A stretch of 64,000 nt of DNA, taken from Haloarcula laminariae. GTDB taxonomy: Archaea; Halobacteriota; Halobacteria; Halobacteriales; Haloarculaceae. Positions 33,836-37,611 of the stretch are shown here, piece by piece. A program made the translations under genes and the position numbers. Within the stretch, counting starts at the first letter, position 1; each line of letters begins with the position of its first letter. Under the pieces are notes generated by a model. That model did not search any database. It worked only from the letters and a program-made list of their open reading frames with translations, and was not told where the DNA came from. The stretch covers positions 248,001-312,000 of the forward strand of contig NZ_JAMZFY010000002.1 in NCBI RefSeq assembly GCF_025457605.1. Reading direction: 5' to 3'.

Positions 33836-35320
33836 CTACAGTTGGTCGAGCCAGTCCTGGGCCTGGGACGGTGAGGCGTTGGTGATTTCGGCCAGTTCGG
33901 CCGGGTCGTACTCCGACAGGTCCTCGACCGTCTCGATGCCGGCGTCGCGGAGCCGGTCGGCGTAGGTCGGCCCGATGCCGGAGACGGTGTCGACGCCGTC
34001 GGAGAGCTCCCCGCTCTCGGCGGCCGCGGCCTGGTCGACCGCGTCCTCGGAGTCCGCTTCCTCGGCTTCGGTGTCCGCGTCGTCGTCCACTTCGACCTCG
34101 ACGGCGTCGTCGGCCGCTTGGGCCGCCTCGCTGGCGGCGTCGGCGACCTCCTCGACGGCGGACTGGGCCTCGTCCTCGGGGGACTCGACCTCGATGTCGA
34201 CCTCCTCGCTGTTGCGCTCGCTGTACCACTCGGCCACGTCGGGCCACAGTTCGGCGTGGGTCGAGGAGGAGACCGAGAGGCCGATGTGGCCCGTCGAGAA
34301 CTCCATGATGGTCGTGTCGTCGCTGGGGATGACGTCGTTGAACGGCTTCGAGGCGTCCGCCGGGACGAGGTGGTCGTACTCGCCCATCAGCTGGAGGACT
34401 GGCATGTCGATGTTCTGAATGTCGACGTGCTTGCCGTCGAGCTCCAGCTCGTTCCTGTAGAGCTTGTTGTCCTGGTAGATGTCTTCGAGGAACTGGACGT
34501 AGGTCTCGCCGGCGACGTCGATGCCGTCGCCGAGCCACTTCTCCATCCGGCCGAAGTTCTCCACGAAGTCCTCGTTCTCCATGTTCTCGGCGAAGCGGAC
34601 GTACTTCGAGACGTAGTTCTCGACGGGGTCCATCAGCGCGAAGCCGATGTCGAGCATCTCCGCGGGGACGTTGCCGAAGGTGTCGGTCACGTCCGAGGGC
34701 TCGTAGTACTCGCCCGCGCCCCACTCTTCGAGGACGCCGCCGGTCTGGTCGAAACAGAGGCCGGCGGCCATCAGCCCGAGGGTGTTGACCTTCTCCCCGT
34801 GGAGGGCGCTGTACATCACCGACATCGTTCCGCCCATGCAGTAGCCGAGCAGGTTGATGGCGTCCTGGCCCGAGCGCTCCCGCACCACGTCGACGCAGTT
34901 GTCGATGTAGCGGTTGACGTAGTCGTCGAGCGTGAGGTGCTTATCGAGCCGCGAGGGCTCGTTCCAGTCGATGAGGTAGACGTCGTGACCGCCCTCCAGC
35001 AGACGCCGCACTACCGACCGCTCCTCCTGGAGGTCCAGGATGTACGGGCGGTTGATGAGCGCGTAGACGATGAGGATGGGGACCGACTCCTTCTCGTCCT
35101 CGTCGACCTCGATGCCGGCGGCCTCGGCGTCGTAGTGGAGGAGTTCGAGCTTGTTCTCCTCGTAGACGACCTCGCTGGGCGTCTGACCGACCTCGACGGA
35201 CTCCATCAGTTCGAGCCGCTCGTCGGCGATAGACGACTTCTCGACGGTGTCGGTCATCGCTTCGAGGGACTTGCGCTGCCAGTCGAGCGCGGCCGTAAAC
35301 GGGTTGTAGTTGCTGGACAT
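33836..35320 (-). CDS. phaC: Class III polyhydroxyalkanoate synthase subunit PhaC, with C-terminal helix-hairpin-helix extension
   Basis: A 494-residue catalytic subunit that polymerises hydroxyacyl-CoA into PHA granules. The alpha/beta-hydrolase catalytic triad is visible: Cys161 in GYCMGG, Asp316 in [10 protein letters not shown] and His345 in STGHIGLS. The core ends near residue 370. After it come an acidic, Ala-rich linker (about 372-440) and a small helix-hairpin-helix module ([20 protein letters not shown], 446-465, then [16 protein letters not shown]), a domain normally seen in DNA-binding proteins. Longer C-termini are known for haloarchaeal PhaC, but the role of this tail is unclear. 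The gene follows phaE with a one-base gap. Confidence 0.96.
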
Positions 35321-35321
35321 G

Positions 35322-35864
35322 TTACTCCAGTTGCTCGATGATGCGGTCGAGCTTCTCCTCGACCGCGTGCTGTCGGCGTTCGAGTTCGACCAGGCGCTCG
35401 GCTACCTCGTCCATGTTCTCCTGTGTGGGAAAGCCCATCTGAGCGATGGCGTCCTGGGAGAGCTCCTCGGCCTCCTGTTGCATCTCCATCATCGACTCGA
35501 CGAGCTGGCCGTTGGCCGCGGCGAAGGCCGACGTGCCCATCACCTGCTTGAACGCCTCGTTGGCGGACTTGAGCCAGATGTCGCGGAACTCGGCCGGGTC
35601 GACGTCCTCGCCCTGCGCGGCGGCCGTCGACCGCTCGACCATCTGTTCGGCGGCGTCGACCCACTCCTCGTAGGCCCGGTTGTACCCCTGCAGCCCCTCG
35701 GACATCTCCTCTTCCTTCGGGATCGAGTCCTCGACGGCGTCGGCCCACGACTCGACGAAGGCGGCCTGTGCCTCCATGTTCTGCTCCATGGAGTCGGCGA
35801 CCGCCGTGTTCATCTCCTCGACCATCTCCGCCCACTCCTCTTGCATCTGGTTTGTATCGCTCAT
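35322..35864 (-). CDS. phaE: Polyhydroxyalkanoate synthase subunit PhaE
   Basis: A 180-residue acidic helical protein, [20 protein letters not shown], followed by [20 protein letters not shown] and a C-terminal coiled coil ([20 protein letters not shown]). PhaE pairs with PhaC to form an active class III synthase. It is shorter than bacterial PhaE (about 350 residues), as is usual in haloarchaea. A poly-T TATA-like tract lies on the minus strand at about 35888-35898, some 29 bp before the ATG, so phaE-phaC may have their own promoter apart from phaR-phaP. Confidence 0.93.
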
Positions 35865-35907: not shown

Positions 35908-36459
35908 TTACGCCTCGACGGCGTCGGCGGCCTGGGCCTGCACTTCCTCGACCTGCTCCTGTATCTCCTCGACCTGCTCCTGGACCTCCTCGAGCTGGTC
36001 GCCGAACTGCTCGGCGACCTCGACGGACTGGGACTCCAGCTCCTCGTGGGCCTCGACGAGCATGCCGACCTGCTCGTCGACGGCCGCGACGTAGTCCTCG
36101 GTCATCTCGTCGTAGGCCTCGACGCCCTCGACCATCTCGCTCTCGACGTTGTCGAAGACCTCGGCGTGGTTCTCCAGCAGGAAGTCGTACTGCTCGTCGA
36201 CGGTGGCGCGGAGCTCGTCGATGGTGCCGGTCATGCCGGGGACGGTGGCCTCGACGGCGTCGAGGTAGCTGTGGAAGGCGGTCTTCGAGAGCTCGACGCT
36301 GCGGCGCTGGGCCGACTCCTGGGTGTCGAGGCTGTCGATGAGCGCCTCGTTGACGTTCTGCTGGAAGCTCACTGTCTGCTCCAGGGCCTTCTGGCTCTGC
36401 TCGATAGTCGCGCGCTGCATCTCGAAGGCTGTCGTGACGGGGGTGGTGTAGTCTACCAT
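35908..36459 (-). CDS. phaP: Haloarchaeal phasin PhaP, granule surface protein
   Basis: A 183-residue protein that is nearly all amphipathic helix: MVDYTTPVTTAFEMQRATIE, NVNEALIDSLDTQESAQRRS, and a regular heptad-like C-terminal stretch EEVQEQVEEIQEQVEEVQAQ. This fits haloarchaeal phasins, which coat PHA granules and limit their fusion. It sits directly after phaR, separated by about 7 bp, and before phaE, the same gene order as described for Haloferax and Haloarcula relatives. Its expression is thought to be controlled by PhaR in Haloferax mediterranei. Confidence 0.85.
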   Translation of the reverse strand: MVDYTTPVTTAFEMQRATIEQSQKALEQTVSFQQNVNEALIDSLDTQESAQRRSVELSKTAFHSYLDAVEATVPGMTGTIDELRATVDEQYDFLLENHAEVFDNVESEMVEGVEAYDEMTEDYVAAVDEQVGMLVEAHEELESQSVEVAEQFGDQLEEVQEQVEEIQEQVEEVQAQAADAVEA

Positions 36460-36791: not shown

Positions 36792-36798
36792 CTTAAAA
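36792..36798 (-). promoter_or_regulatory. TATA box of phaR
   Basis: CTTAAAA on the plus strand reads TTTTAAG on the minus strand, about 32 bp before the phaR ATG (36763). It lies just promoter-proximal to the four-half-site palindrome at 36811-36845, so a bound repressor or activator could contact the basal machinery. Confidence 0.55.
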
Positions 36799-36810
36799 CT
36801 TTCCGTGATT

Positions 36811-36845
36811 TACCATCTGCTACCATTGAATGGTACTGAGTGGTA
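36811..36845. promoter_or_regulatory. Putative PhaR operator: four half sites spaced by 5 bp
   Basis: TACCA-n5-TACCA-n5-TGGTA-n5-TGGTA: two direct copies of TACCA followed by two of its complement, all in 10-bp steps. The central 15 bp, TACCATT-G-AATGGTA, is a perfect palindrome. It lies 13-47 bp upstream of the phaR TATA box and between divergent phaR and the MaoC gene. One helical turn per half site suits a multimeric regulator such as an AbrB-type protein. The assignment to PhaR is inference. Confidence 0.6.
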
Positions 36846-36969: not shown

Positions 36970-36976
36970 TTTAATA
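36970..36976 (+). promoter_or_regulatory. TATA box of the MaoC hydratase gene
   Basis: TTTAATA is centred 30 bp before the ATG at 37003, the usual distance for a leaderless haloarchaeal transcript. The four-half-site palindrome at 36811-36845 lies 125 bp upstream. Confidence 0.5.
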
Positions 36977-37002
36977 GCCCGACCGCTAAACAGGATTCAT
37001 CA

Positions 37003-37611
37003 ATGAGTTCTGAACCGTTGCGGAACCCACTGCTCGATACGTGGACAGAGACCTCTTCTCACATGTTCAACAGCGTCGTCGCGGCCAACCGAGCGGCGTT
37101 TGCGGCGTTCGGCGTCAACCCCGACGAGGACCTCCCGTCGCCCGCCGAGCGCATCGAACCCGACGAGGACCTCCCGGAGTGGCACGTCGCCATCTCGGAG
37201 GACCACCCCGACCGGCTCGGCGTCGGCGACACCGTCGAGTTCACGAAGACCATCTCGGACAACGACGTCAAGCAGTTCGCCGCCGCCAGCGGCGACACGA
37301 ACCCGCTCCATCTGGACGACGAGTTCGCCGAGGGGACCCGCTTCCGTGGCCGCATCGCCCACGGCACGCTCGTCGGGAGCCTCATCAGCGCCGCGCTCGC
37401 GCGCCTGCCCGGCCTGACCATCTACCTCTCCCAGGACCTGGAGTTCCACAACCCCGTCCGCATCGGCGACCGCCTCACCGCCGAGTGCGAGATTGTCGAG
37501 GACCTGGGCGACGAGCAGTACCGCCTCACCACGCGCGTCAAAGAGGACGACACGGTCGTCATCGACGGCGAGGCCGTCGTGCTCATCGACGAACTCCCGG
37601 ACGACAGCTAA
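37003..37611 (+). CDS. MaoC-family (R)-specific enoyl-CoA hydratase, probable PHA precursor enzyme
   Basis: A 202-residue protein. An N-terminal extension of about 60 residues (PLLDTWTETSSHMFNSVVAA) precedes a hotdog-fold MaoC domain with the motif ASGDTNPLHLDDEFA and FRGRIAHGTLVGSLISAAL, which contain the catalytic Asp/His pair of (R)-hydratases. It would convert enoyl-CoA to (R)-3-hydroxyacyl-CoA, a monomer for PHA synthase; haloarchaeal PhaJ proteins do this. The N-terminal extension has a phasin-like look (WTETSSHMFNSVVAANRAAFA), which may help it bind granules. It is divergent from phaR. Confidence 0.85.
   Translation: MSSEPLRNPLLDTWTETSSHMFNSVVAANRAAFAAFGVNPDEDLPSPAERIEPDEDLPEWHVAISEDHPDRLGVGDTVEFTKTISDNDVKQFAAASGDTNPLHLDDEFAEGTRFRGRIAHGTLVGSLISAALARLPGLTIYLSQDLEFHNPVRIGDRLTAECEIVEDLGDEQYRLTTRVKEDDTVVIDGEAVVLIDELPDDS

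Follow-up and report, generated by a model that had tools for sequence, protein, structure and literature searches.

A phased array of TGGTA half sites as the predicted PhaR operator of the haloarchaeal phaR-phaP operon

Four exact TGGTA/TACCA half sites, one every 10 bp, lie just upstream of phaR in Haloarcula laminariae and very probably form the operator of the phaR-phaP operon, at which PhaR is predicted to bind and to repress its own operon. The array was found in the window, a 64,000-nucleotide stretch of genomic DNA in which the initial annotation had proposed a PhaR operator, and conservation among haloarchaeal genomes supports that proposal well, with binding predicted from sequence. 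The support is threefold: the array keeps a fixed place at PhaR promoters, is nearly absent from genomes that lack PhaR and recurs at the promoters of phasin genes not linked to phaR.

Results

The array and the phaR promoter

The array TACCATCTGCTACCATTGAATGGTACTGAGTGGTA (36811–36845) is intergenic, in the 239 bp between phaR on the minus strand and a divergent MaoC-family gene on the plus strand (Table 1). It reads TACCA-n5-TACCA-n5-TGGTA-n5-TGGTA, four exact half sites with starts exactly 10 bp apart, in agreement with the regular spacing first annotated. With TGGTA written as > and TACCA as <, its order is <<>>, two half sites facing two, from either side. Neither a search of the intergenic region for further repeats nor a sigma-70 promoter and terminator scan gave anything beyond the array.

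On the minus strand, the end of the array at 36811 is followed by the BRE-like CGGAA, the TATA-like TTTTAAG and the phaR start codon (ATG, 36763–36761), 47 nt from the array. The array had been said to adjoin the phaR TATA box, and both promoter-like stretches do lie right beside it. Archaeal transcription starts about 26 bp past the centre of the TATA box; by this rule the array would lie between positions of about -42 and -76 relative to the predicted transcription start. The array sits, as a PhaR operator would have to, in the promoter of the phaR-phaP operon; the operon itself (phaR, phaP-like, phaE and phaC, all on the minus strand) has the gene order described for haloarchaea, given as phaJ-phaR-phaP-phaE-phaC in passages of PMC10948481.

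Table 1. Features of the phaR region (window coordinates)
Feature	Coordinates	Strand	Remark
Operator array (PhaR box array)	36811–36845	none	four TGGTA/TACCA half sites
Half site TACCA, closest to phaR promoter	36811–36815	+	TGGTA when read towards phaR
Half site TACCA	36821–36825	+	
Half site TGGTA	36831–36835	+	
Half site TGGTA, most distant from phaR promoter	36841–36845	+	
BRE-like CGGAA, phaR promoter, adjoining array	36801–36805	-	predicted; layout repeated in relatives
TATA-like TTTTAAG, phaR promoter	36792–36798	-	inferred
phaR, 98 aa	36467–36763	-	C-terminal AbrB-like domain (about residues 55–95)
phaP-like phasin gene, 3' of phaR	35908–36459	-	name from published gene-order synteny
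phaE, class III PHA synthase subunit	35322–35864	-	PF09712, E 5.6e-13
phaC, class III PHA synthase subunit	33836–35320	-	TIGR01836, E 5.1e-120
Divergent MaoC-family hydratase (phaJ)	37003–37611	+	probably not an array target
TATA-like TTTAATAG of MaoC gene	36970–36977	+	inferred; about 125 bp off array

Searched with up to 1 mismatch, TACCA-n5-TACCA has two matches in the window, both exact and both within the array, with 0.32 expected. A genome scan for this pair, proposed with the initial annotation, returned three exact occurrences in 3,685,742 bases; two are the array and the third falls within a long open (coding) frame. The full 20-base <<>> pattern has a single match in this genome at up to 3 mismatches, and TACCA-n5-TGGTA palindromes occur twice more (loci L116 and L117). 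The genome also has a single PhaP match, which is phaR-linked, and the predicted target here is therefore phaRP, with any read-through to phaEC. On these counts we reject a broad regulon within the genome of the window: the full pattern is found once, the only PhaP match is by phaR and the third pair is coding.

Spacing and register at PhaR promoters

We examined 83 regions upstream of PhaR, comprising 80 of 159 relatives found in genome contigs, two plasmid loci and the window. There are 67 exact same-strand TGGTA pairs at a spacing of 10 bp and 21 at 20 bp, with one altogether at spacings of 1–9 and 11–19 bp. Convergent half-site pairs number 11, 18 and 6 at 10, 20 and 30 bp, and there are no divergent pairs at these three spacings in the 83 regions. 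Elsewhere in these loci, across 455,671 bases, there are 306 half sites, none of them paired at 10 bp.

Strong arrays (at least 3 steps, score at least 6) are present in 52 of the 83 regions and in 14 of the 22 named genera (at least one strong array each), counts that kinship among the genomes inflates. No array reached a score of 6 in 40 shuffled sets, and none was found at a step of 7, 8, 9, 11, 12 or 13 bp. Chance pairing of half sites is ruled out by the window and genome counts, the spacing and the shuffled sets.

The repeated unit is rATGGTA, and over 189 units its T, G and G are conserved at 0.97, 1.00 and 1.00. Read in the direction of the gene, the step closest to the promoter is TGGTA in 51 of the 52 arrays; the second step has this orientation in 46 of the 52 and the third in 27, the fourth in 5 of 33. 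The register is therefore strict and the orientation flippable, nearly always inward.

A strong array is missing from the other 31 regions, which include every one examined from Halovenus (4/4; L062, L065, L066, L068), Natronomonas (4/4; L042, L049, L051, L073), Haladaptatus (2/2; L070, L115) and Haloglomus (2/2; L058, L064). PhaR without this array therefore exists; in such regions PhaR may use weaker or different sites or another operator, or autocontrol may have been lost.

The gene served by the array

A divergent MaoC gene stands beside phaR in 75 of 80 loci, and an intergenic site could act on both genes. The initial annotation had suggested that the array may also reach the divergent hydratase. 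In the 45 of these 75 loci that have a strong array, the distance from the array to the phaR start has a median of 47 bp (sd 7.9), whereas the distance to the MaoC start has a median of 152 bp and varies widely (sd 82, range -16 to 366 bp). Because the first distance is constant and the second variable, the array belongs to the phaR promoter. Arrays elsewhere precede unlinked phasins and not hydratases, and in the window the TATA-like box of the MaoC gene is well removed from the array (Table 1). An array common to both genes, also controlling the phaJ promoter, is accordingly unlikely, and we set aside control of the MaoC gene as unsupported.

The MaoC hydratase carries about 70 residues ahead of its MaoC domain (76–180), by eye similar to a phasin N-terminus; this stretch could perhaps serve granule attachment.

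Co-occurrence of the array with PhaR

PhaR is present in 227 of the 391 genomes of the class. The <<>> pattern, allowing up to 3 mismatches, occurs in 88 of the 391; 83 of these have PhaR and five do not (Fisher p 2e-17 over the 391 genomes, a figure inflated by kinship). A PhaR operator should be conserved with PhaR and rare without it: the array genomes divide 83 of 88 in favour of PhaR, and beside them stand the array-free PhaR regions described above and 144 of the 227 PhaR genomes without the <<>> form at this threshold. In the window's genus, 22 of 24 genomes have the <<>> pattern, in 22 of 22 within 150 bp upstream of PhaR, and in the remaining two (G185 and G333) PhaR is preceded instead by an exact TGGTA-n5-TGGTA-n5-TGGTA. 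Among the matches listed there are 75 <<>> places, of which 48 can be compared with a listed PhaR place, the other 27 being excluded. Thirty-eight of the 48 lie within 150 bp upstream of PhaR and 10 do not; four of those 10 (G268 twice, G117 and G173) precede phasin genes.

Shorter exact arrays are distributed similarly across the 391 genomes. The >>> form (three TGGTA) is found at 37 places: 25 upstream of PhaR, five at unlinked phasins and seven elsewhere (G265:C1:1620283, G352, G068, G346, G005 and, twice, G251). The <>> form (TACCA-TGGTA-TGGTA) is found at 25: 21 upstream of PhaR, three at unlinked phasins and one elsewhere (G276). Together, 46 of these 62 three-step arrays are at PhaR, eight at unlinked phasins (54 of 62 at phaR or a phasin gene) and eight elsewhere, where one longer array may count twice. 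The reversed <>> pattern, a clean control, has no match in the 391 genomes. The reversed >>> control is not clean, since the unit is usually ATGGTA and its reverse reads ATGGT, which matches the same arrays.

The array places in G346, G251 and G276 are in genomes without a PhaR match. At G265:C1:1620283 (L174, 1501–1525) a clean three-step array has no phasin or PhaR frame adjoining. Another three-step array (G068:C1:546754; L153 2455–2479, L180 1501–1525) is flanked by frames that look, by eye, hydroxyacid dehydrogenase-like and TIGR00725-type-like, and is a possible further PhaR target.

These distributions bear on whether some other regulator of the polymer genes, such as the PspR (PPS-like) repressor, binds the array. 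By ChIP-qPCR and EMSA, PspR is reported to bind the phaR promoter of H. mediterranei, and passages of the report name no site (PMC10948481). Against this, the array tracks PhaR, its unit is of the AbrB type, and the same report counts PspR in 13 haloarchaea with no Haloarcula among the table rows listed, whereas the array is in all 24 genomes of the window's genus. We consider a regulator of this sort highly unlikely, and take PhaR as the probable ligand in what follows.

Arrays at unlinked phasin genes

At seven loci (G268, G173, G068, G252 twice, G216 and G134) the gene directly behind an array away from phaR is a relative of PhaP (E 7e-35 to 2e-67), as judged with a profile of 69 phaR-linked relatives and the window's PhaP. 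For the converse test, a protein search of 96 genomes of the family supplied 38 PhaP-like genes unlinked to phaR, and we scored their upstream regions, counting an array at a score of 5 or more; in three tandem pairs the region scored was that ahead of the leading gene. The search rows were used in part, and four (G288 twice, G037 and G049), for which the PhaR position was not listed, were dropped. An array precedes 12 of the 16 strong PhaP relatives (E at or below 1e-60) and one of the 22 weaker ones, the latter apparently spurious. Control regions upstream of other long frames score in 2 of 150 cases, and one or two of these matches may come from a frame so extended that it takes in a PhaR promoter. 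With the four cases already known from the array searches (G268, G252 twice, G117) removed, the count for strong phasins is 8 of 12. At most unlinked phasins the array is followed, as at phaR, by a BRE/TATA-like stretch.

This layout, common to phasin and phaR promoters, is what would be seen if the phasin arrays were remnants of copied phaRP promoters and not a working regulon. Such an origin is doubtful: the orientation and the number of steps vary at the phasin arrays while the 10-bp register is kept, a combination that suggests selection, and the weaker PhaP relatives yield only the one seemingly spurious score. We therefore continue to read the phasin arrays as predicted PhaR targets.

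One unlinked phasin of another genome (L151, 2415–3239) has a C-terminal stretch resembling, by eye, that of PhaC. In the window's PhaC, residues 443–494 form a terminal helix-hairpin-helix domain (PF14520, E 7e-12). The two together raise the possibility that granules are linked to DNA or among themselves.

PhaR and its likeness to AbrB

The C-terminal domain of PhaR is predicted to be AbrB-like. PhaR matches NCBIfam TIGR01439 with E 1.6e-5 and 24.5 bits (cut-off 28.3) and Pfam MazE_antitoxin at 17.2 (cut-off 24.7), both below the cut-off, and a 40-row profile matches PDB 2glw with E 2.5e-8. AbrB-like chains (AbrB, SpoVT and relatives) lead the fold matches, which are weak (E at least 0.3, Z at most 3.8), and the predicted single-chain model is of low confidence (pLDDT 65.8, pTM 0.34). 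Because the model is poor and the fold matches weak, we claim no docking and no stoichiometry. In 40 PhaR proteins R61, R67 and R75 do not vary, and they may correspond to DNA-contacting arginines of AbrB. Those arginines are R8, R15, R23 and R24 in passages of PMC4022651.

AbrB sites have been given the pseudo-consensus TGGNA-n5-TGGNA (in part of PMC11497800) and called 'bipartite TGGNA' (in part of PMC11135676), and the array holds two TGGNA boxes 5 bp apart, as a site of this type requires. It shares with bacterial AbrB sites the pentamer, the 5-bp gap and, as predicted, the swapped-hairpin DNA-binding domain of the regulator. The same passages of PMC4022651 describe AbrB as a tetramer that binds long sites cooperatively, which may be a further likeness to PhaR at its array, and its site specificity as long elusive. 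The haloarchaeal sites differ in that the N of TGGNA is mostly T (93% of the 189 array units), in having three to four strict steps in register with the BRE/TATA, and in that half sites flip; moreover, the DNA-binding domain is N-terminal in AbrB, and that predicted for PhaR is C-terminal.

Discussion

The array is best explained as an operator through which PhaR would control its own operon. The product of the adjacent gene, PhaR, would occupy all four half sites in a row along the same helix face, two dimers or one tetramer being the probable form. In this position, adjoining the BRE/TATA from which it is itself expressed, it would hinder the loading of TFB and TBP and so repress itself. Polymer granules would draw off free PhaR, and repression would be relieved when polymer is made.

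Activator sites are common upstream of the BRE in archaea. Since the array occupies this position, we take repression from the literature and not from the geometry. An array that activates phaRP, with PhaR or a partner just upstream of the BRE recruiting TFB, would suit its position relative to the predicted start and its constant distance from the BRE-like CGGAA that it adjoins. This is nevertheless quite unlikely: in H. mediterranei, according to passages of two reviews, the activity of the phaRP promoter increases about fourfold when phaR is lost and is lower in polymer-negative strains (PMC9049629, PMC7137286), and the promoter carries a negative element of four tandem repeats, described in the former as most likely the PhaR site (PMC9049629). 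The former also states, as the initial annotation had, that PhaR represses phaRP in this species (PMC9049629), and repression by PhaR remains our preferred reading.

The window's array resembles the H. mediterranei element in operon, gene order, type of regulator and the presence of four promoter units. The H. mediterranei units, compared here by review description only, are described as tandem, whereas those of the window, although four repeated units are likewise present, are oriented two and two (<<>>). Five genomes of one genus (that of G211) and a Haloferax larsenii plasmid have mostly <<<> arrays with weaker last steps; we assign the five to Haloferax on the match of their arrays and PhaR to those of the H. 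larsenii plasmid. The four-repeat element of H. mediterranei reportedly goes back to Cai et al. 2015.

Bacterial PhaR differs from the haloarchaeal protein in family and in operator. The likeness to bacterial PhaR/PhaP control (Cupriavidus and others) is one of logic only, that of a polymer-responsive phasin autorepressor (in part of PMC9049629).

A four-repeat, PhaR-type site was thus already known from H. mediterranei, and the window's site adds another. What is new is the rule of a phased, flippable array and the predicted phasin regulon. A literature search covering titles, abstract openings and some passages found no AbrB-type rule or phasin regulon for haloarchaea, and both the rule and the unlinked phasin targets may already be in literature outside that search.

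We think it somewhat probable that haloarchaeal PhaR reads a modular code shared with bacterial AbrB, in which TGGTA boxes are placed every 10 bp along one side of the helix, may be flipped and keep a fixed phase to the BRE/TATA, and that throughout the haloarchaea this code marks out a regulon of phasin (granule-coat) genes, including some far from phaR. The findings suggest that AbrB-type recognition (TGGNA-n5-TGGNA) works alike in Bacteria and Archaea. They also provide, for the principal regulator of bioplastic granules in haloarchaea, a predicted operator resolved to the base, a rule for its position and a list of candidate targets, with a possible use in tuning phasin levels.
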